26,063 nt of DNA from a virus: positions 1 through 26,063 of the IMG/VR virus record IMGVR_UViG_3300033182_000211, one strand, 5' to 3'. Positions 4,672-24,058 of this stretch are shown one piece after another. The notes under the pieces were generated by a model. It ran no database searches. It had not been told where the DNA came from and was given only the letters and a program-made list of their open reading frames with translations. The position numbers and the translations under genes were made by a program. The stretch's first letter is position 1. Each line of letters opens with the position of its first letter.

Positions 4672-5013
4672 TTAAGAGCTCCTTGATACACTTGGATTGA
4701 CAGTTGCAATCCCTTCAACAACTCTAGTCTTAACACCGAGTGCATCAGTGATAAGTAAGTCGTAGACATAACGACCAGAATCAAGAGCAGAGGTTTGCGT
4801 GTCGGTTAGGGAAATTGTGATTTTGCCTGTGGTTCTATCGGCATCAAAGGTTGCAGTAAAAGCAGTCGCAGTAGTAGACTCGTAGGTTTTACGAATCTGT
4901 GCAAGTGCTGTATAACTTGTCAAATCAAGTGCTGAACCGTCACTATCTGAAATAGTTACAGTTGTGCTAAAATCAGCACCTTGGTCAATAAAAATATTTG
5001 AAATCGTTGCCAT
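4672..5013 (-). CDS. Small beta-domain virion protein (113 aa)
   Basis: The sequence reads as one Ig-like or BppU-like beta domain: I-D-Q-G-A-D-F-S-T-T-V-T-I at the start, L-D-L-T-S-Y-T-A-x-A-Q-I-R-K-T-Y in the middle, then A-L-D-S-G-R-Y-V-Y-D-L and V-V-E-G-I-A-T-V-N-P at the end. I recognise this pattern from small structural proteins of many phages, including marine T4-like ones, where it may act as an upper-baseplate or fibre adaptor. It is the first gene after the terminator at 5066-5093 and the consensus late promoter at 5038-5045, so it begins a new transcription unit that probably runs through gp13 and gp14. The start is chosen from the GGAG upstream and the family's usual M-A-x-I opening. 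Confidence 0.72.
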   Translation of the reverse strand: MATISNIFIDQGADFSTTVTISDSDGSALDLTSYTALAQIRKTYESTTATAFTATFDADRTTGKITISLTDTQTSALDSGRYVYDLLITDALGVKTRVVEGIATVNPSVSRSS

Positions 5014-5037
5014 CTAACATAATCTCCATTCTCCTTC

Positions 5038-5045
5038 TATTTATA
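5038..5045 (-). promoter_or_regulatory. T4-type late promoter octamer TATAAATA
   Basis: The minus strand reads TATAAATA, an exact match to the T4 late promoter consensus. It lies 25 bases before the ATG of the 113-residue gene and just past the terminator at 5066-5093. It should drive the unit ending with gp13 and gp14. Late promoters of this class lack a -35 box, so the octamer is the whole signal. Confidence 0.72.
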
Positions 5046-5065
5046 AGGATTGTGATTGTTAGATG

Positions 5066-8003: not shown

Positions 8004-8338
8004 TATGGTTTCTCCGGCCAAACAACATCATCCAATGATGTGTAGGTATCTGTTATATCTCTAAGTGCTTGTCTGTATGTTTTCCATGCAGCAGGGATGT
8101 TTGTTCCCTTCTCTTTGTGCATAGTGACAACCCAATCTGTTTCTGCGAGTTTTCTATTTCTTTCAAATCTCAATTGTTTTAGTTGAGATTCTGCAATTAC
8201 ATTAGTAACCTCTGCAAGAATTTCATCGTCAGTAGGACGAGTTTGGTCTTCATCTAACCACTCAATACCATCAACAGTTTCTCCAATTACAATAAACCTT
8301 GCATTTGGACGAAGGGACATAAGTGCTTCAGTAATCAT
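8003..8338 (-). CDS. Phage tail assembly chaperone-like protein (111 aa)
   Basis: The N-terminal half reads as a small marine-phage domain: M-I-T-E-A-L-M-S-L-R-P-N-A-R-F, G-I-E-W-L-D-E-D-Q-T-R-P-T-D-D-E-I. The C-terminal half has R-N-R-K-L-A-E-T-D-W-V-V-T, then P-A-A-W-K-T-Y-R-Q-A-L-R-D-I, the hallmark of the phage tail assembly chaperone family (Pfam Phage_tail_APC, as I recall it). Such proteins are encoded next to fibre genes and help them fold or assemble. The gene overlaps the upstream 297-residue fibre gene by four bases (ATGA) and the downstream S74 fibre gene by one base, so the three are probably translationally coupled and the chaperone may serve either fibre. Confidence 0.78.
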   Translation of the reverse strand: MITEALMSLRPNARFIVIGETVDGIEWLDEDQTRPTDDEILAEVTNVIAESQLKQLRFERNRKLAETDWVVTMHKEKGTNIPAAWKTYRQALRDITDTYTSLDDVVWPEKP

Positions 8339-9228
8339 CCGGCAATCTCCATAACAGTTAGTGTTGACATTGGGCGTGTTCCATAAGACCCTGCTACATC
8401 GCTATAGGACGCAGAACGATTGATATAAACAACACCACTACTAGAATCTTCTGGTCTTACTTGGACTTTGTATGTCAACGCTGATGTTGAACTTGGTTCA
8501 TCCATTACAGTAAAGTGAACACCACGAGGGTGATTCCCATCACCTTCACTAGAACCAGTTCTAAAAGTAGTTCCAACTCTATTACTATCAGTTGATGGAT
8601 TTCCCGTTATAGTGTTTCCATTTCTCAATACACGACCATCTAGAGTTCTCTCCCTACTGGCGTGCCAAGTTGAAATCGCACCAAAATAACCCATAATTAA
8701 AAATTTACTATTTGCATCTCTGGGTGTCATAGTAACCGTCAAACTATTCACATCAGTATAACCACCACCAGTGAATGATTGAGTGACACTGAGTGTTGCA
8801 GTTGCAACTTGTAGAACCTTACCAGCAGTAATTGTATCACTACCACCCAATGCAATAGTTGTTCCATTGATTGTGATGGAGTCATTAGCAAGTTTAGTAT
8901 TAGTAACACCACCATCTGCAAGTTGACTTGTGTTTACACTTCCAGCACTTGGAACACCGATATCCAGTGTATCACCGAGTGCCATGATGAAGTCAATGTT
9001 ATCAGAACTTGTCAATGCACTTGCGAATGTAATCTGTGAACCGCTTACAGTGAATGAATCTTGTGGAGCCTGCATAACACCGTTCAAGGAAACCAACAAA
9101 TGATTTGCACTCTGAGGGTAATATGCACCACCATCTAATGTTAGATTGTAGGTAGCAGTTGCCGAAGTTGTGATTGAATCCAACTTAGAGTATGCACCTG
9201 TTTGTGGTTGTTTTCCAATAAATGGCAT
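8335..9228 (-). CDS. Tail fibre protein with MPFIGKQP N-terminus (297 aa)
   Basis: Residues 1-95 carry the marine-phage fibre opening M-P-F-I-G-K-Q-P, then L-L-V-S-L-N-G-V-M-Q-A-P-Q and F-T-V-S-G-S-Q-I-T-F-A-S-A-L, a variant of the DGST beta repeat found in neighbouring genes. Residues about 95-135 are a short N-T-S-Q-L-A-D-G / N-T-K-L-A-N-D-S-I-T-I linker. From about residue 140 a different beta domain begins (V-L-Q-V-A-T-A-T-L-S-V-T-Q) and runs to a conserved-looking end, S-T-L-T-V-M-E-I-A-G, containing F-L-I-M-G-Y-F-G and Y-I-N-R-S. This end domain probably forms the globular knob that touches the host; that is inference. A late-promoter octamer lies upstream and the assembly chaperone overlaps its 3' end. 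Confidence 0.78.
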   Translation of the reverse strand: MPFIGKQPQTGAYSKLDSITTSATATYNLTLDGGAYYPQSANHLLVSLNGVMQAPQDSFTVSGSQITFASALTSSDNIDFIMALGDTLDIGVPSAGSVNTSQLADGGVTNTKLANDSITINGTTIALGGSDTITAGKVLQVATATLSVTQSFTGGGYTDVNSLTVTMTPRDANSKFLIMGYFGAISTWHASRERTLDGRVLRNGNTITGNPSTDSNRVGTTFRTGSSEGDGNHPRGVHFTVMDEPSSTSALTYKVQVRPEDSSSGVVYINRSASYSDVAGSYGTRPMSTLTVMEIAG

Positions 9229-9249
9229 CTTTTAATTCCTATTTCTCTA

Positions 9250-9257
9250 TATTTATT
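9250..9257 (-). promoter_or_regulatory. Late-promoter-like octamer AATAAATA
   Basis: The minus strand reads GAATAAATATAG, 22 bases before the ATG of the 297-residue fibre gene. It is one mismatch from the T4 late consensus. Its TAA is the stop codon of the 73-residue gene. The flanking bases match those of the element at 11630-11637 closely. Confidence 0.55.
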
Positions 9258-9474
9258 CTGTATCAATATATGTCTGTGCAGCATCAACAGATGCCTGAAA
9301 AGCAGACAAATCTTCATCAGAGTCAGTGACTTCTGTGATTGACATTTGAAATTTAATTCCATCCATTACTTCTTTAACTCTAGTCTTGTCACCAGAGTCA
9401 GCAACTAACCCATCTAAGTAAGTCGTTCCGTTAGTCAAGTCTGTAATATATTGTTCTAGTGTTGGTTCACTCAT
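9253..9474 (-). CDS. Small acidic hypothetical protein (73 aa)
   Basis: I do not recognise this protein. It is acidic and predicted helical (L-E-Q-Y-I-T-D-L, V-K-E-V-M-D-G-I-K-F, F-Q-A-S-V-D-A-A-Q-T-Y-I-D-T-E), unlike the glycine- and threonine-rich fibre genes around it. It has no membrane segment or signal peptide. Its ATG shares a base with the stop of the 204-residue gene (TAATG), so the two are probably coupled and it may assist that protein, for example as a small chaperone. That role is inferred from position and composition only. Its stop codon lies within a late-promoter octamer that serves the next gene. Confidence 0.65.
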   Translation of the reverse strand: MSEPTLEQYITDLTNGTTYLDGLVADSGDKTRVKEVMDGIKFQMSITEVTDSDEDLSAFQASVDAAQTYIDTE

Positions 9475-15369: not shown

Positions 15370-18300
15370 TTAAGTCGCCAGTGCTATTGCTCTTAGGTCT
15401 TTGATACGAGGAACCTCAGAAGAGTTAGTTCCTTGCAGACGAATCTTAATTGCGAATGCAATGAACTCTTCTAGACCTTCTACTGTGTATTCTCTTTCGA
15501 TGAAGTCCGTATTGTTTACAGATGCGTTCACAGCTGTATCTGGAGTTCCATCACCATTGAAGTATGTCCAACCAATCTCATCGAAGTCAGATGCATCGTC
15601 TGAACGAAGAATCTTATACATCACTTGGATTTCAGCAGTGTCAAACTTAACCGCATCCAAGTATGTTCTGATTGCAGTCGCTGGAGTCTTCAACTGAACC
15701 TTACGAGTGACATAGTTACATTCGTTAGAATCACCTTCTGGTTCTGTTGGAGAAATATAATCTGTTGAAGGATAGATTGCAGATGAACTATCAACATTAT
15801 CCAAACGGTTTGCAACAGCAACAACAGTTCTTCTATCCAAGTCAATGATTGGTGACAAGTTCTCTTTGTCCGAAGTCATTGTGAAGATAAGGTTGAATGA
15901 TTTCTCACCAGACAATTCTTGTGTTTCATTGACTTGTGAACATACAATCTTAGGATTCGCAAAGTAATGGTTATCCGTAATCGGAATAGACTCTGCTTGT
16001 CCTAGAGTTTGTTTTGAGAACGAAGTCTCTGTTCCACTTGGTGAAGTTCCAGATGTCGTTCTGACTCTTGCAGTCAAAGAAGTATCTGGGTGTTCAATTG
16101 TAGGAACAAGAGTTTGCATGTTGTTCATCAATGCGTTTTCAGTTGAAGTTACAGAGTCACCACCACCAGAACCATCAGCAGTTGCAGCGGTTGTAGTTGT
16201 AATAGTGTAAGAGTCAATCTGAATATCACCGATTGCATTGTGTGTCTTGTTCACTTCTGTCAATGGAATACCATTCAACTGATAGAGTTCAATCGTTGCA
16301 CCATCAGAGTGTGCAGCAGCATCACCCTCAACTGCACGAGAAAGTGAAGTGATTGAAGTTCCAGAAATGGTTCCAGACATTACTTCATCATCTACTTTAA
16401 CATATACAGTTCCAGACGAAGGCCATAGGTTTGAACTTGTCAATGTGAGTGAAGTTGCACTATCGGTGATTGCACCATTCAGTGTAGTTTCGATACCAGA
16501 ATGAACACCAGTGATTGTCACATTGTTCGAAGACGAATACATGTGATGGTCTTGGTGTGTAATCTTAACCTTAGAGTCGCCACTGATTGTTCTGCAAGGA
16601 TTGTTCTGTAGAGTAACAGCAGGAACCTCATCGTTGACGAAGGTTACTGTTCCAGTTGCAGAAGTATCAAATGATGCACGATACAAGTTGAACTTCAAGT
16701 CTTCAAAATCGTATGCAGTCCAAGTTGTGTTGTTCTGTGATTTGAATAGAACACCCAAGTAAGGTTGTTCTGAAACCAAACGAGAACCACCCACATCAAC
16801 TTCACCCATACGAGAAATCCATGCGAAGTATTTCGCAGAGTCAGTGAAGAGAACGATACAGTATTCTACACCATCTTTAACATAGACAGGTTCTTCAAAT
16901 ACAAATGTTGTTGGAACAGATGCATCATCAGAGATATTAACTTGAGATGGTTCGTAAGTTACAGAACCGAAAGGTAGAACCTTGGTGGTTGGGTAACCAT
17001 TAGACATCTCACGAATCTGACATGTAACAGGTAGGTCATCATCCTTACCTTGGAAGTAAGTATCAATCTTAGTGATGAACTCTCCGCCTGGGGCTTGTGG
17101 CATAAATGATTGAGCAAGTGGATCCCACCATCCAACAACTGCATCACGAGTTTGAGTGTTAGTAACCGTTCTAGATTGAGATACATTACGAACCTCAACC
17201 CTTGCGTTACGAGTTGCGATGATTGTCTCTTGAACAGTATTAAGGATACCAGTTGCAGAGTAAATTGCTTGTGCGAAAGTTTCTGGTTCTGGAGTTTCTT
17301 CATTCGTTGCAGAAGAAGTCAATCTGAACACTCTCTCACCAGTTCTGAATTTAGGGTTACCATTCACATTAGGGTCTGGAATTCTGAATACACCTTCAAT
17401 CTTACCAGCAGCAGATGTGATAAGGTTATCACCTTCTGAACCACCAGATGGAGTTACAAGACTAGATACTTTATTCTTATCAAAGAATGGATAAACCTTA
17501 GTCAAAGGTTTCATACCAGTAACGGTAAATGTAATATTCTTTGCACGACAGAAAGGAATCAATGCACGAGATAAAACTCTATCACCTTGTGATTCGTAAT
17601 CAATCTGTGGAACAACCGAAGTCTGAATACCAGTTCTAGATTGTCCAGTTTGAGTCGTTGTCGTTGTTCTCTGAATAACAGGTCTGAAAGGAACTTGTCT
17701 TCTTGCACGAGCCCAAGAGGTTTCTCTGAATGTAGTAGTTCTAGAACTAGTTACACCAGACCATTGGGTTTGCCATGCGTTCCATACTGTTCCAATTGCG
17801 TTACGGTTTGCAGCAAGGACAGTATCAAAGTTACCTTCTCTGTTGATAATCAAATCTGGGAGACGGTTTACTTCAAACCACTCATCACCAGATGGAGATA
17901 GTTTACAAATACCCGCCCATGAGAATGAGAGAACAGGGTTCAAGTTTTCAATACGAGTCGCATATGGTTGACTTACTGCAACCTTATGAGTGTATGGAAG
18001 AGTTAGAATATCACCTGTCTTCTGATATTGGTCATTGGTTCTTTCTGCATCAGTAGTATTCTCTTCTGAGATAGACACACCCTTCATGTAGTATTTCGGA
18101 CGAAGTTCACCCGCTTGCATGTCAATCGCATTACGATAGTCTGGGTGTTTAACATCACCAGTTGCGTGACCAGCGAAGTTGTCTACTACGAAACCAGACT
18201 TGAATCGGTTTAGACCGTTAGAGTCTGTAATCTCTAGTGACTGTGCGTCCTTCTCAAGAAGGTTCAGTGCAGTGTAGTATTCCATGTTACTGATACGGGT

Positions 18301-21300
18301 TTCAAGTTTACCGATATCACGCATGGTATATCTACGGTTGTTTTCTTTTGTGAACGATGCATCACCGATGTCAATGATGTATGGGTTCAAGTTGATATGT
18401 GCAATCTTCATTGCATTATCAATTGGTTTAGGTGGAACAGGTTGTTCAGCAGATGCACCACTGACTACCTTAAACTCACCTTGTGAATTCAAGAACAACA
18501 TGTCAATACGACCAACATAGTAGTCAAAGTCGTAGACGAAGTTTGAGTTATCTTTTGGAATACCGATAGTTGACGAACCAGTTCCAGCAAAACTTCTGTC
18601 TTCAAAGTTGAAAGACATAGAAGTAACTTTGTAAGTTGTCTGAGACTGAATAGTAGTTGTAGTCGTAGTTGCGTCTGCAACACGAGGTCTAAAGTCAACT
18701 GCATCACGCAAGTCGTATTCACCAGTAGGTTCTGCAACCTCTGGGTCTACACGAGTCGCAGAGTAAGTAGGAATTTCTTTATAACTGATTTGACTATAAG
18801 AGTCAACAGTGAAGAAGTCACCAGTTCCGTGTGAGAAGTAATCTGCAACAATCAACAACTTACCAGTAGGTGCAACAACACCAGGCTTACGAACTAGTCT
18901 ACCGATATCGTAGAAGTTGTCTCGTTGTCCATTGTCCAATGTAAATCTGTTTGTGACATTCTCATCACCAGCAGTGAATGTATCAAGTGTTGCGTATTCT
19001 TCACTCTCTGCACCGATGATTTGTTCACCAGATGTGAATGCAACATTGTTGACTGACACATAAGTGATTGGTGTCAATGGGTTTACGATTCTTGCAATCG
19101 CACCAGAGTCTTGTCCAGTAATCAATTCACCTTTTTGGAATACACCAGATGCACCAGTAACAGTCCATTGAGGTAGAACAGGGTCAGTAGAATTATCAGC
19201 AGATTCAAACACCGCCCATAGTTTATGAATGTCTGCAACACCAAGTGAAACATCTTTATGGTGTGCAGAGGTTCCGTATTCAGCACCACCAGCAATACCA
19301 TCATTGTCTACAAGGACAAGATGCATTCTGTTTCGTGTCTTGGTTTTTTCGTTTACTACAGTTCTTGTCAGTGTGGTAATCAAACGAACTTCTGCACCAT
19401 TACCCAAAATAGTTGAAGAGGTAACAGTCAGTGTTCCAGTTCCAGCACCAGTAACAGTAACATTAGAAGAGTTAAGGTTTACAATGTCACCCGCTGCACC
19501 AGAACCACCAGAACCAGCAGCAACAATCATCATCACATAGTCTGTGTTGTCAACTGCACCGAAGGTTTCGTTTGAACCAGCTGTGAAGGTAACCGCACCA
19601 CCAGCAGATGATGAGTTGACAAACGACCTACGAATGGTTACTTGAGTATCAGAGATGCCACCGTTTGCTTCTGTCTTGAGTGTTTTAATAGAACTCTTTT
19701 GTAGTTTACGAAGGAGAATGTTTTTGTTTTGGTCATTGAGTTGAGCTCTCTTACGAGTTGCACCGATAGACGATACAGTTGTTGTAGGAGCAGAATCAAC
19801 TTCAATTTCGTTTGCACTGTTAATTGTAGAAACAGTTCTCTCTTCTAAGACACCACCAGAACCAGTTGGGATTTCAATAACATCACCAACACGCAATTCA
19901 TTTGAGAAATCTGTTTGGTAACCAGTAATAGTAACCGAAGATGAACTTGTAGTAATAAGTCCAGATAGAGTGTAAGATGCACTCAAATCAATATCAGCAG
20001 TGAAGTCTGGGTCGCCCACATCTGGGTCACTCATATAAACTTGTTTTGCAGAAGACAAGTCGTGTGGAGTAACAGAGCTGATTGTCAAGTCTGTGTTACC
20101 AGAGTCTTCTAGAATCTCATCAGTCTCAGTAGAAGAGGTAGAGATTAGTTTCTCACCAGCAGTGAATTGTCCAACAACCGAAGTTAGAGAAATAATTGAG
20201 CCACTAGATGCAGATGCAACAAATCCATATGCACCAGATAGAGAACCAGTTACTTTGGTTCCCTGTGTTACGGCAGGACTTGGAGTTGCACTCATTGTTA
20301 GGTTTGTGAACATACGAAGGTCAAACAAGTAGAGTTTGTATTTCGTATCTGTATTAGTTGAATCTACAACGAGGTCTGTTCCAGAAGTGTCATTACCTTC
20401 ATGGTGTTCAAATGCACGAGCTCTTGCGAAACCAATCTTGTTACCAGATGGAGTTCCACGAGATGCAGTCTGTGTATCGTATAGTGCAATCTCACGATAA
20501 GGTTCATCAATCTCACCAGAGATGAAAGGTGAAATTTCTGGAGCACCATTGATGTTATTTACAATAAGGTAGTTACCGACCTCTACAGGGGTAACCGCTG
20601 CGTTGTAGTTTTCGAATCCTCTTGGTTTAGGGAAGTCGATGTATTTTGGTGCGATTGTTTCAATCTCATAACCACGAACATAGGCCTTGCCTGGCGATAC
20701 TTGAACAGTAAGGTAATCATCAGATGCAGTGTTACCAGAGTCGGTTGTGTCACCAACATTATAAACACCGTCATTCAAACCATCGTTCAAAGTCTCACGA
20801 ATGTCGATTTGGAAATCACGAACTGTGTAGTCACCAGACTCATCGTATGTTCTACGAGCAAGTGTCTCACCCAATACTGAGTATTCTGTGTTTCGTGCTT
20901 TCTCTTGTGCAACACCATTCTTAACTCTTAGGAGTTCAATAAAATCTTCATCTTCCTCAGAGTCAAGAGCAAGTTTTGCAAGTGTTAAAGAAATCTTGAG
21001 ACGGTGAGCGCCCTTTGCGTTTACATTGGATGTTCCAGTTGCGTTATCCAAAAGAGTAGTATCTTCTTCTGGAGTTTCCAAAGATTCAGTCACAGTCAAA
21101 CCGATACGGTATGAAGGAGTTGCAGTGAATTTGTCTAGAATAAGTCTTTGTTCTGCAACACGAACGAAGTGTCCACGAATGAAGTAAACACCTTCTTGGA
21201 TGTTTGCAGATGAACCGATTGCAGTTCCATTAACTGTTGCAGAGTCAATACCAGAACCGAAAGAACCTACAGTTCCATCTGCACTAATATTCTCACCATC

Positions 21301-21723
21301 GTTAAACACAACAGTTTCGTTGTCAGAACCAGTTCTTACATATTTTACATAAAGAGTGATAGGGTCTGCGGCAGTCGCTGCAACCGCTTCAACAACTTCT
21401 GCAACAACACCAGAGGTTGTTCCAGTAATTCTCTTACCAACATAATCGTCAATCTGAGATGTAATATCATTAGACGAAAAGGTAGACTCTAACTTTACTG
21501 CATAATACTCATTCGTAAAACCGATTGCGCCAGGGATAACCACTGTTCCTTCTTTGAACATATGTCGTCCATGTCTCTCAATCTGATTCTGTAGAATAGA
21601 TTGGAGTTGAGTTAGTTCACGACCTTGGACAGCGAAGCCTGGACGAAAGAGAACACGATGAAAATTCTTGTCCTCTGAAAAGTCGTCATAATAAGGATTG
21701 ACATTAAGATTGGTTTTTTCCAT
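15370..21723 (-). CDS. Very large DUF4815-type baseplate structural protein (2117 aa)
   Basis: The N-terminus (N-P-Y-Y-D-D-F, K-N-F-H-R-V-L-F-R-P-G-F-A-V-Q-G-R-E-L-T-Q-L-Q) is the hallmark of DUF4815-type structural proteins of marine T4-like phages. Other parts are D-N-G-Q-R-D-N-F-Y-D-I-G near residue 925, E-Y-D-L-R-D-A-V-D-F-R-P near 1000, and M-E-Y-Y-T-A-L-N-L-L-E near 1157. W-W-D-P-L-A-Q-S-F near 1540 leads into G-K-D-D-D-L-P-V, N-G-Y-P-T and E-Y-C-I-V-L. Around 1740-1830 sits an inserted beta domain with S-L-S-R-A-V-E-G-D-A-A-A-H. It ends D-L-R-A-I-A-L-A-T. Genomically it takes the place of T4 gp9 to gp12, so it may be the peripheral wedge to which fibres attach. Its ribosome binding site is weak and lies in the end of the homing endonuclease gene. 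Confidence 0.82.
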   Translation of the reverse strand: MEKTNLNVNPYYDDFSEDKNFHRVLFRPGFAVQGRELTQLQSILQNQIERHGRHMFKEGTVVIPGAIGFTNEYYAVKLESTFSSNDITSQIDDYVGKRITGTTSGVVAEVVEAVAATAADPITLYVKYVRTGSDNETVVFNDGENISADGTVGSFGSGIDSATVNGTAIGSSANIQEGVYFIRGHFVRVAEQRLILDKFTATPSYRIGLTVTESLETPEEDTTLLDNATGTSNVNAKGAHRLKISLTLAKLALDSEEDEDFIELLRVKNGVAQEKARNTEYSVLGETLARRTYDESGDYTVRDFQIDIRETLNDGLNDGVYNVGDTTDSGNTASDDYLTVQVSPGKAYVRGYEIETIAPKYIDFPKPRGFENYNAAVTPVEVGNYLIVNNINGAPEISPFISGEIDEPYREIALYDTQTASRGTPSGNKIGFARARAFEHHEGNDTSGTDLVVDSTNTDTKYKLYLFDLRMFTNLTMSATPSPAVTQGTKVTGSLSGAYGFVASASSGSIISLTSVVGQFTAGEKLISTSSTETDEILEDSGNTDLTISSVTPHDLSSAKQVYMSDPDVGDPDFTADIDLSASYTLSGLITTSSSSVTITGYQTDFSNELRVGDVIEIPTGSGGVLEERTVSTINSANEIEVDSAPTTTVSSIGATRKRAQLNDQNKNILLRKLQKSSIKTLKTEANGGISDTQVTIRRSFVNSSSAGGAVTFTAGSNETFGAVDNTDYVMMIVAAGSGGSGAAGDIVNLNSSNVTVTGAGTGTLTVTSSTILGNGAEVRLITTLTRTVVNEKTKTRNRMHLVLVDNDGIAGGAEYGTSAHHKDVSLGVADIHKLWAVFESADNSTDPVLPQWTVTGASGVFQKGELITGQDSGAIARIVNPLTPITYVSVNNVAFTSGEQIIGAESEEYATLDTFTAGDENVTNRFTLDNGQRDNFYDIGRLVRKPGVVAPTGKLLIVADYFSHGTGDFFTVDSYSQISYKEIPTYSATRVDPEVAEPTGEYDLRDAVDFRPRVADATTTTTTIQSQTTYKVTSMSFNFEDRSFAGTGSSTIGIPKDNSNFVYDFDYYVGRIDMLFLNSQGEFKVVSGASAEQPVPPKPIDNAMKIAHINLNPYIIDIGDASFTKENNRRYTMRDIGKLETRISNMEYYTALNLLEKDAQSLEITDSNGLNRFKSGFVVDNFAGHATGDVKHPDYRNAIDMQAGELRPKYYMKGVSISEENTTDAERTNDQYQKTGDILTLPYTHKVAVSQPYATRIENLNPVLSFSWAGICKLSPSGDEWFEVNRLPDLIINREGNFDTVLAANRNAIGTVWNAWQTQWSGVTSSRTTTFRETSWARARRQVPFRPVIQRTTTTTQTGQSRTGIQTSVVPQIDYESQGDRVLSRALIPFCRAKNITFTVTGMKPLTKVYPFFDKNKVSSLVTPSGGSEGDNLITSAAGKIEGVFRIPDPNVNGNPKFRTGERVFRLTSSATNEETPEPETFAQAIYSATGILNTVQETIIATRNARVEVRNVSQSRTVTNTQTRDAVVGWWDPLAQSFMPQAPGGEFITKIDTYFQGKDDDLPVTCQIREMSNGYPTTKVLPFGSVTYEPSQVNISDDASVPTTFVFEEPVYVKDGVEYCIVLFTDSAKYFAWISRMGEVDVGGSRLVSEQPYLGVLFKSQNNTTWTAYDFEDLKFNLYRASFDTSATGTVTFVNDEVPAVTLQNNPCRTISGDSKVKITHQDHHMYSSSNNVTITGVHSGIETTLNGAITDSATSLTLTSSNLWPSSGTVYVKVDDEVMSGTISGTSITSLSRAVEGDAAAHSDGATIELYQLNGIPLTEVNKTHNAIGDIQIDSYTITTTTAATADGSGGGDSVTSTENALMNNMQTLVPTIEHPDTSLTARVRTTSGTSPSGTETSFSKQTLGQAESIPITDNHYFANPKIVCSQVNETQELSGEKSFNLIFTMTSDKENLSPIIDLDRRTVVAVANRLDNVDSSSAIYPSTDYISPTEPEGDSNECNYVTRKVQLKTPATAIRTYLDAVKFDTAEIQVMYKILRSDDASDFDEIGWTYFNGDGTPDTAVNASVNNTDFIEREYTVEGLEEFIAFAIKIRLQGTNSSEVPRIKDLRAIALAT

Positions 21724-21728
21724 TTAAT

Positions 21729-22490
21729 TTAACTCTTTTGTGTTACAGTATAACCTTTATACTGCTTCAATTTTCCTTTAGCAACTGAGGACATATTTCC
21801 TCTATGTAACTTGTGTTCCCTACAAAATTCGGCAAGATTGTCCACTTCTTCTGTGTGTCCATCTGGGAAAGTAACAATCCATTGTTTTGTCCATGCAACT
21901 GTTCCCTTTTTAGATAAACTCATTTTCTGTTTGTATTCTTCACTCCAAGTCTTACCTTTGTTCCACCCCTCTTTTCCTAGATTGGCTTCACTAATTTTTC
22001 TCTTGGTTTCCTCTGTATGATGTTTACCATATAGAGGATGATTCTCACCAGAATATAAACCTTTCTTTTTCTCACTCATCAGTTTCTTAGTTTCTTCTGA
22101 GTGGGATTTACCAAACATCGGGTTGAGTTGTCCAGAACGAGATTTACCTTTCCAGTAATTATTCTCACTCATCTTTTGTTTAGATTCATCAGTATGATAA
22201 ACCAAACCAACTCCACCTTCATTCATATTATAACCAGATTCAAATGTGTTGAACTCTTTGATATATTTAGTCTCTAATTCCAAAGCATTTTCTTTAGTAT
22301 CAGTCATATCAATTTGTTCAATCTCAAATAAATCCTTACCATATTTTCTAATCGCTTGGTGAAATTTATAATCACTATAACGACTTTGTGTGATATGTTC
22401 CTTTAATCTTTGATTGATATCATTCTTAGTGATACCAATATATTTCTTTCCGTTTGTTTTATTCGTTACACAATATATGCTGTAGTTCAT
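21729..22490 (-). CDS. GIY-YIG homing endonuclease with NUMOD3 repeats (253 aa)
   Basis: Residues 4-19 hold the GIY-YIG signature in the form S-I-Y and Y-I-G. By alignment to I-TevI, Arg28 (N-Q-R-L-K-E-H) and Glu73 (L-E-L-E-T-K-Y-I-K-E-F) correspond to catalytic Arg27 and Glu75, so the nuclease looks intact. Residues about 110-190 carry three NUMOD3-type DNA-binding repeats (N-P-M-F-G-K-S-H-S-E-E-T; H-P-L-Y-G-K-H-H-T-E-E-T; W-N-K-G-K-T-W-S-E-E-Y). The C-terminus (F-P-D-G-H-T-E-E-V, N-L-A-E-F-C-R-E) is a further DNA-binding module typical of these enzymes. It is lysine-rich and more AT-rich than its neighbours, as expected for a mobile gene. It is free-standing between gp8 and the DUF4815 gene, both intact. 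A hairpin covers its ribosome binding site. Confidence 0.9.
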   Translation of the reverse strand: MNYSIYCVTNKTNGKKYIGITKNDINQRLKEHITQSRYSDYKFHQAIRKYGKDLFEIEQIDMTDTKENALELETKYIKEFNTFESGYNMNEGGVGLVYHTDESKQKMSENNYWKGKSRSGQLNPMFGKSHSEETKKLMSEKKKGLYSGENHPLYGKHHTEETKRKISEANLGKEGWNKGKTWSEEYKQKMSLSKKGTVAWTKQWIVTFPDGHTEEVDNLAEFCREHKLHRGNMSSVAKGKLKQYKGYTVTQKS

Positions 22491-22491
22491 A

Positions 22492-22543
22492 GTTGAGTCC
22501 TCATTGTTTTACTAATACTATTTAGTAAAACTTAGAACTCAAC
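22492..22543 (-). promoter_or_regulatory. Two-stem hairpin over the ribosome binding site of the homing endonuclease
   Basis: In the minus-strand RNA, GUUGAGUUC (22543-22535) can pair with GGACUCAAC (22500-22492) with one G-U pair. An inner perfect 9-bp stem, UUUUACUAA (22530-22522) with UUAGUAAAA (22515-22507), has a six-base loop. The outer stem includes the GGA of the GAGGA ribosome binding site (22502-22498). There is no U-tract after it, so a terminator is unlikely. It probably blocks translation of the endonuclease from read-through gp8 transcripts, as described for I-TevI of T4. Confidence 0.65.
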
Positions 22544-22549
22544 CTTATA

Positions 22550-24019
22550 TCAAAATTCTATAACAATTTTTATATCTTCTGTTTGGTCGCTTGCACGAGA
22601 GATAGGTCTTCTATTCTCTACATAAAGAATGTCACCACTGTCTGGTTCCAACTCTGGGTTTGCATAACCAGATGTAAATGTAATCGTTGAACCACCAGTA
22701 AGTGTTACTGTGTCAGATGCATTAGAAGATGGAGTTGCAACCGCAGTTGAAGTTGCACCAGTGATTGCATTTGTTCCACTGAATGCAGCAGTATTACCAT
22801 CACTGTCTACACCATAGTTTTCCCACTGTTCTTGCATGAGGTAAAGAATGTTATTCGTTGAATCCCATTCAACTACACGACCTACTGCACCAGTAGTTGC
22901 TTGTGTAATCTTCTCATCAATCTCAAAATCAGTAGATGGAGCTGTTGTGAAGTAACATGCAAATGTCTGTCTACGAGTAGTCGCAGAAGATACTGTAGTT
23001 GTTCCATAGTTATAAGGATTTCTTACAATACCAACTTCTCTGAAATCGTTTGCAACAGTGATGTCGTCACCTTCAAACTGTTCTAGTTTAACATTGACCA
23101 TTACATAGTGTCCACCCAATTCTGTCACTGCGTCATAACCGTGGCCACCTTTAGGTGAAATGATTAGTTCAACCGCACCACCAGTTCCAGCACCAATTGA
23201 ACCAGAAGTAGTTAATGCAGCATCAGTATAGATGTCGTTAGTCAAGTCTACTGTTGCGAATGTGTAACCAGAACCCGCAGTGTAAACATTGGTTCCAGAA
23301 GAACTCTGAGATGCAATCGCACCACCAGATACAACAATCTCAACAACACCAGAAGAACCATCACCACGCACTGGTGCATAGTAAGTTCCATCAGTGTATC
23401 CAGAACCAGCGGTAACTCTAGTCACATCCAGTGAACCATCAACTGCGGCAGCAGATACAGTTGAGTCAGTTAATACTGGAATGAAGTCTGAGGTTACGAA
23501 CTTCTGAATCTGAGAAGTTGAAAGAGTATACATGTATTGCAACAAGTAACCACCCAACTCAAATGGAGTTGCAGAGGTTGACGAAGGTTCAGAACCACTA
23601 TATGCAGTTCCACCATTGTTGTCAAGGACTTTATAAATCTTATATTCAGATGTCATAAAGAAGTATGTTCCATCTGTCAATGTAGTCGCACCAGAATCAG
23701 TTGTGTTAGAAGAACTGATATCGTGTTCATACATGTCGTAAGTAGTGGAGTTAGTCCAATCTCTACGAGGAACAACATATGATACATCCGAAGATGAAAT
23801 AAGTTTTGCACCCAACATTGAATCCCACTTATAAAATTCAGTGGTGATATCATCATTAGGGACAGGTGGAGAGTTGTCACTACCACCAGAAGTCGCAGAA
23901 GTAAAAGGTGAACTCTTACCTACGAACAAGTAATAAGTTGTAGCCGCTGCTTCAGAGAACGATTCATAAAACTGTTCTGCATTGTGGCGTCTAAACTTTT
24001 CTGTAATAATCGCTGCCAT
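22550..24019 (-). CDS. 8: Baseplate wedge protein gp8-like (489 aa)
   Basis: The N-terminus F-R-R-H-N-A-E-Q-F-Y-E-S-F-S-E-A-A-A-T-T-Y-Y-L-F-V-G-K is characteristic of the gp8 baseplate wedge homologue of marine T4-like phages. Further on are F-Y-K-W-D-S-M-L-G-A-K, Y-V-V-P-R-R-D-W, M-Y-E-H-D and Y-K-I-Y-K-V-L-D-N-N-G-G, and a central A-G-S-G-Y-T-D-G-T-Y-Y repeat-like region. It ends with I-L-Y-V-E-N-R-R-P-I-S-R-A-S-D-Q-T-E-D-I-K, a tail I also recall from this family. At 489 residues it is longer than T4 gp8 (334), which is usual for the marine members. In T4, gp8 forms part of the six wedges around the hub. A late-promoter-like octamer lies 31 bases upstream of the ATG. Confidence 0.8.
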   Translation of the reverse strand: MAAIITEKFRRHNAEQFYESFSEAAATTYYLFVGKSSPFTSATSGGSDNSPPVPNDDITTEFYKWDSMLGAKLISSSDVSYVVPRRDWTNSTTYDMYEHDISSSNTTDSGATTLTDGTYFFMTSEYKIYKVLDNNGGTAYSGSEPSSTSATPFELGGYLLQYMYTLSTSQIQKFVTSDFIPVLTDSTVSAAAVDGSLDVTRVTAGSGYTDGTYYAPVRGDGSSGVVEIVVSGGAIASQSSSGTNVYTAGSGYTFATVDLTNDIYTDAALTTSGSIGAGTGGAVELIISPKGGHGYDAVTELGGHYVMVNVKLEQFEGDDITVANDFREVGIVRNPYNYGTTTVSSATTRRQTFACYFTTAPSTDFEIDEKITQATTGAVGRVVEWDSTNNILYLMQEQWENYGVDSDGNTAAFSGTNAITGATSTAVATPSSNASDTVTLTGGSTITFTSGYANPELEPDSGDILYVENRRPISRASDQTEDIKIVIEF

Positions 24020-24050: not shown

Positions 24051-24058
24051 TATTTATT
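24051..24058 (-). promoter_or_regulatory. Late-promoter-like octamer AATAAATA
   Basis: The minus strand reads CAATAAATAACT, three bases after the stop codon of the 544-residue gene and 31 bases before the gp8 ATG. It differs from the T4 late consensus only in its first base. It would start the baseplate transcript gp8, endonuclease and DUF4815 gene. Confidence 0.55.

Follow-up and report, generated by a model that had tools for sequence, protein, structure and literature searches.

A putative hairpin-gated start site, with a late-promoter-type octamer inside it, at a free-standing homing endonuclease gene of a marine T4-like phage

The start site of a free-standing homing endonuclease gene in a marine T4-like phage is probably gated by an RNA hairpin that carries a late-promoter-type octamer, ACTAAATA, and we place the probability of this reading at roughly two in three. 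The hairpin at the endonuclease gene is real, and it is a fresh example of a published switch in an unusual late-operon setting. The stretch of DNA analysed, called here the window, is 26,063 nucleotides long and comes from the genome of a marine T4-like phage; among the annotated genomes of the collection searched, Methylophilales phage Melnitz is nearest to it (72.9% DNA identity across 65% of a 2.5-kb query). In RNA begun upstream, as the gp8 message or as earlier read-through, the hairpin would pair the ribosome binding site and block translation of the endonuclease. A late RNA polymerase of the gp55/gp33/gp45 type would begin 6 nt past ACTAAATA, within the hairpin, and the resulting late RNA would lack both 5′ arms and leave the ribosome binding site open. 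The likely outcome would be a low and separately controlled endonuclease output within a strongly expressed late operon, together with silence on early read-through. Since gp8 is itself a late gene, such a gate would mainly limit the dose of endonuclease, rather than part early from late expression.

The hairpin and its gene neighbourhood

Three genes of the minus strand follow one another in the order gp8, endonuclease, VrlC-like gene. The late gene gp8 (22550..24019; PF09215, PHROG 438) encodes the baseplate wedge, and is followed by the endonuclease gene (21729..22490), whose 253-aa product matches GIY-YIG (Pfam PF01541, E 8.8e-14), the NUMOD3 repeats (PF07460, E 7.4e-28) and the homing endonucleases of PHROG 314. 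The key GIY-YIG residues Y6, Y17, G19, R28, E73 and N88 are invariant in the four sequences aligned. Downstream lies a VrlC-like structural gene of 2117 aa (15370..21723), at which a possible ribosome binding site, AAGAG (21737-21733), is found within the 3′ end of the endonuclease gene and 9 nt ahead of the VrlC-like ATG; the VrlC-like gene may thus not need translation of the endonuclease, having an AAGAG of its own.

Among the best 80 gp8 loci, about 75 are readable past gp8, and in these the VrlC-like gene comes next, separated from gp8 by a short gap that is usually 3 nt. Both the endonuclease gene and the hairpin are missing from these approximately 75 empty sites, so that the two are absent together. 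Melnitz is one such empty site, and a single locus among them (L153) has its own late octamer behind gp8. Judging from these sequences, the gene is a free-standing GIY-YIG endonuclease that is either present or absent at one site.

The minus-strand RNA between 22560 and 22480 folds into a single stable structure of -23.9 kcal/mol (z = -4.84), a hairpin spanning 22491..22544. The original prediction, made from the letters alone, had placed two stacked 9-bp stems between gp8 and the endonuclease at 22492-22543; the fold that it proposed for checking bears out both stems and corrects their size. The outer stem has 11 bp including 2 G-U pairs (22544-22534 with 22501-22491), and the inner stem has 10 bp without any mismatch (22531-22522 with 22515-22506), closing a 6-nt loop, ATAGTA. 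The 5′ arm of the outer stem, GGTTGAGTTCT (22534..22544), begins 6 nt past the gp8 stop codon, and its 3′ arm, AGGACTCAACT (22491..22501), contains most of the ribosome binding site; the inner arms, GTTTTACTAA (22522..22531) and TTAGTAAAAC (22506..22515), were given both by the fold and by a separate listing of inner arms. The ribosome binding site, GAGGA (22498..22502), stands 7 nt ahead of the ATG at 22490, and 4 of its 5 bases are buried in the computed outer stem, in agreement with the earlier statement that its GGA is paired.

Such a fold is rare for DNA of this composition. When the 60 nt preceding the ATG were shuffled with dinucleotides kept, -23.2 kcal/mol was reached in 0 of 20,000 shuffles, and the hairpin stretch is the most stable among 6,766 segments of 60 nt with no more than 40% G+C. 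Moreover, the endonuclease start is the costliest to open among the 27 gene starts in the window. No Rfam family matched the window or any of the hairpins tested.

The octamer and the cost of opening the start site

ACTAAATA (22526-22519, minus strand) straddles the inner 5′ arm and the loop. It had been described as two mismatches away from the late octamer, which is right with respect to T4 TATAAATA; the more useful reference is the consensus of this phage group, N[A/C]TAAATA, which it fits. In Melnitz, 23 of 38 occurrences of ATAAATA precede an annotated start by 15-70 nt, a range that covers 8.3% of positions (p 6e-16), and the same holds for 7 of 17 occurrences of CTAAATA (p 0.0003, against the same 8.3%), while GTAAATA (1/16) and TTAAATA (2/16) show no enrichment there in that genome. 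A C at -12 is therefore tolerated in the group, and this enrichment makes ACTAAATA a plausible late promoter. Its credibility is further raised by the occurrence of CTAAATA ahead of gp8 in Melnitz (CCTAAATA), at the place where the window carries AATAAATA (24051..24058, minus strand), by the annotated Melnitz genes for a late sigma factor and a late coactivator, and by phage Aeh1, in which the late promoters are CTAAATA (PMC1524935). In cyanophages, NATAAATA has been reported as the late promoter (PMC2984593). Within the window, ATAAATA occurs 7 times on the coding strand and 0 times on the opposite strand, and 6 of the 7 are found immediately upstream of a structural gene. All 15 occurrences of the shorter TAAATA are likewise on the minus (coding) strand, and the plus strand has none.

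With the T4 spacing, at which the octamer occupies -13 to -6 (PMC1524935), the late transcript is predicted to start at 22513 on the minus strand. Opening the ribosome binding site together with the start codon costs 14.6 kcal/mol in the read-through RNA versus 1.5 in the predicted late RNA; when the upstream segment was shuffled 200 times, this cost never came out as high. Opening GAGGA alone costs 8.0 versus 0.6 kcal/mol. The earlier suggestion that a transcript begun inside the hairpin leaves the site free thus agrees with the computation for a start 6 nt after the octamer. The equivalent calculation for T4 I-TevI gives 14.5 kcal/mol for the read-through RNA and 1.6 for the late RNA.

The possibility that late promoters are generally wrapped in such hairpins was considered and rejected: in a survey of 40 late octamers, taken from Melnitz and the window, the gate was slight or lacking at most. 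Only 2 of the 40 differ by as much as 13 kcal/mol between the two RNAs at p < 0.005, namely the octamer of the endonuclease and that of the Melnitz gp5-type hub gene at 76363, so that late promoters do not as a rule bring such a gate with them.

As far as computation goes, the locus has the make-up of the I-TevI type: an endonuclease gene downstream, a ribosome binding site held in a stable hairpin and a candidate late promoter whose RNA omits the 5′ arm. Embedding in an early or middle transcription unit, which is usual for the type yet not strictly defining, is not seen here, where the gene upstream is the structural gene gp8 with its own late octamer (24058-24051). The early/late timing logic of I-TevI cannot be transferred unchanged to a site behind a late gene; silence on any early read-through would remain. 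The case for a timing role of the gate is weak, since the read-through message is itself late; repression in the cell and a role in limiting dosage are what we infer from the computed energies and the gene order.

Same-site relatives and alternative readings

Beyond the window, four loci were recognised with the endonuclease at this site, and neither a profile search nor a loose DNA pattern for the promoter region recognised any further one among the matches listed. The only other copy with the hairpin (L001) is identical to the window over 5,176 nt and is therefore not an independent copy. The remaining three, L002, L003 and L004, carry a related endonuclease (57-58% protein identity) at the equivalent site and amount to two distinct sequences, L002 and L003 being alike upstream. 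All three have the full TATAAATA at the position matching ACTAAATA, yet no gate is predicted in them (ddG -0.2, -0.2 and 1.6). The outer 5′ arm is similar in L004 (GTTGAGTTTTA) and L002 (GAGTTCTA), with GAGTTYTA similar upstream in all three, whereas the downstream arm is different and the partner is thus missing; a weak inner pairing of TTAYTA or TTGTTA with TAGTAA is left. The outer stem is kept in 0 of the 3 loci, and no covariation of it is found among them. Within its own lineage, then, the hairpin lacks conservation, and compensatory changes cannot be demonstrated: covariation between the two arms, which the original prediction had named as a check, fails for lack of partners in relatives that retain the octamer. 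From this failure it does not follow that the hairpin is idle. The few same-site sequences are compatible with either a gain of the outer stem in the window or its loss in L002-L004.

These comparisons bear on how the hairpin is to be read. It may silence the endonuclease while ACTAAATA is no working promoter at all, in which case the gene would be nearly off, or would be read only where ribosomes coming off gp8 open the stem, by translational coupling. The two departures of ACTAAATA from TATAAATA, set beside relatives with the full octamer at the same site, speak for such a silencer, and the gp8 stop codon, only 6 nt ahead of the 5′ arm, speaks for coupling. We nonetheless hold this to be unlikely, given that the octamer position is retained in all same-site relatives and that a C at -12 is both enriched upstream of Melnitz genes (7/17, p 0.0003) and the consensus in Aeh1. 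Some coupling may also accompany the gate with a working promoter: a ribosome that terminates at the stop codon of gp8 (22552-22550) would overlie some of the outer 5′ arm and might briefly open it, allowing a leak of translation. That the whole structure is a chance fold without function is extremely improbable, even if the fold is missing in the closest same-site relatives, in view of the 0 in 20,000 shuffles, its rank as the best fold of 6,766 A+T-rich segments and an energy gate that matches the one computed for T4 I-TevI.

Two further explanations give the sequence a different task. The palindrome could act as DNA, being an operator over the promoter that is bound by the endonuclease in an autorepression like that of I-TevI. 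Its perfect 10-bp palindrome does overlap the octamer, as the I-TevI operators overlap late promoters, and the 5′ arm GAGTTYTA is kept in the relatives without the stem; yet the promoter region shows no significant similarity to the gp8/VrlC-like junction, taken as a stand-in for the true homing site, in six comparisons on both strands covering the window and five relatives (p 0.24-0.95), and the outer stem would be left unexplained. We regard an operator as quite improbable, and as very improbable that the hairpin belongs to the gp8 mRNA, as a processing site for RNase III or RNase E or as a stabiliser of the 3′ end. A long and stable hairpin beginning 6 nt after the gp8 stop would suit the latter role, but approximately 75 relatives have gp8 without it, no intrinsic terminator or U-run follows it in the window, and the burial of the ribosome binding site and the placement of the octamer would have to be coincidence.

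Known systems and similar hairpins elsewhere

The original prediction had drawn a parallel with T4 I-TevI, which is controlled by a hairpin that blocks read-through RNA and by an internal late promoter. This account of I-TevI is correct and the mechanism has already been published, not only for I-TevI but also for I-TevII, I-TevIII, SegB and MobE (PMC2988022). It is shared by the T4 genes e and soc, where early read-through RNA is blocked by a hairpin and late promoters inside it release translation (PMC3014915). Compared with I-TevI, an I-TevI-like mechanism at our locus is sustained by a site that is buried and freed at energies near those of I-TevI; it is not sustained by the timing argument or by covariation. 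I-TevI (of the td intron), I-TevII and I-TevIII have a hairpin over the site and an internal late (or middle) promoter, but they lie in introns of early or middle genes, whereas the window endonuclease is free-standing in a late operon. I-TevI further binds an operator resembling its homing site, and no operator similarity of this kind was found in the window.

Closer in arrangement are Aeh1 mobE and T4 segB, free-standing endonuclease genes whose ribosome binding site is covered by a hairpin and which are served by a late promoter, the Aeh1 late promoters being likewise CTAAATA. They differ in that mobE is an HNH gene in nrdA and segB lies in the tRNA region, so neither stands between two late structural genes. 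The leaders of gene e (lysozyme) and soc serve the phage's own genes, unlike that of a mobile endonuclease. The parallel that was called notable accordingly stands and becomes less notable, for SegB and MobE were already known and gates recur at other viral endonuclease genes. A literature search gave no report of the mechanism for marine phages, which is weak evidence of novelty as few subscription papers were covered.

To what extent such gates recur was surveyed in IMG/VR, where related GIY-YIG genes gave 122 distinct upstream regions. A late octamer stands about 15-70 nt before the start in 28 of the 122, and for 13 of these 28 the computed gate amounts to 6-23 kcal/mol (p <= 0.025). The 13 gated regions represent approximately 5 sites, which are the window locus, L182, L231, nrdA/nrdB and a split-intein nrdA (L200, L202). 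At nrdA/nrdB (L169, L173, L179, L185, L204 and others), TATAAATA lies in a hairpin loop just before a GIY-YIG/NUMOD3 gene, an arrangement that resembles our locus; those genes differ by a protein identity of about 30-36%, by a nucleotide-metabolism site and by a stem in which no ribosome binding site can clearly be made out. The hairpin there (L169 and others) has a 17-bp stem, 98% paired, with three pairs changed on both sides. Independent gates of this form at four other endonuclease sites, one family of them with covariation, lend weight to the reading given here. Directly before a GIY-YIG gene following phoH, L182 has a hairpin (1700-1770) of roughly 20 bp whose loop carries TATAAATAAATA; its gate of 22.6 kcal/mol is the strongest seen. 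In L200 (1-2935) and L202 (1-2702), a two-part intein splits nrdA (..CVAGDTLISI / ..HNFFANDILVHN-C..); the GIY-YIG gene that separates the halves has TATAAATA within a long start-site hairpin (ddG ~11 kcal/mol).

Similar hairpins also occur at a virion gene. In Melnitz (MZ577097, 76315-76365; L163, L368), a hairpin covers the ribosome binding site of a gp5-type (OB-domain) baseplate hub gene, and it is found likewise upstream of the gene start in L369-L389, L413-L418 and L423-L426. In Melnitz, L369 and L388 the hub gene adjoins a tRNA gene. Altogether the hub-gene hairpin is present in approximately 30 marine IMG/VR loci, its loop invariably containing TATAAATA or CATAAATA, and has a gate of 10-21 kcal/mol in nearly all of them. 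The ribosome binding sites vary (AAGGGA, AAGGGG, AAGAGGA) and the 5′ arms are changed to match. No Rfam family corresponds to it.

The hairpins at the hub gene and at the other sites establish that the anatomy exists in this phage group, and are no proof of function at the endonuclease locus. It is possible, at somewhat less than even odds, that marine T4-like phages commonly place a late promoter in the loop of a start-site hairpin, on essential virion genes such as the gp5-type hub gene as well as on several unrelated endonuclease insertions, and that the hairpin described here is a dosage limiter and not a timer. If this is true, selfish endonucleases of ocean phages would repeatedly use the T4-type RNA/promoter switch, apparently with a different sequence at each site, and the hub-gene hairpins would show that, in many marine phages, an ordinary virion gene is under such a switch as well. 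The late-operon setting described here separates two ideas on the purpose of the switch, timing on the one hand and dosage or protection of the host operon on the other.

Two further start-site structures were noticed on the minus strand of the window. At 5011-5065, before a gene at 4672-5013, TATAAATA (5045-5038) lies between 9-bp arms, CATCTAACA and TGTTAGATG, whose pairing takes in the start codon. Immediately upstream is an intrinsic terminator (5093-5072), and at the Melnitz orthologue of the gene (107306) a related hairpin is found whose arms have changed. At 9206-9270, AATAAATA is part of a weaker start-pairing structure of a gene at 8335-9228 (ddG 6.4, p < 0.005).
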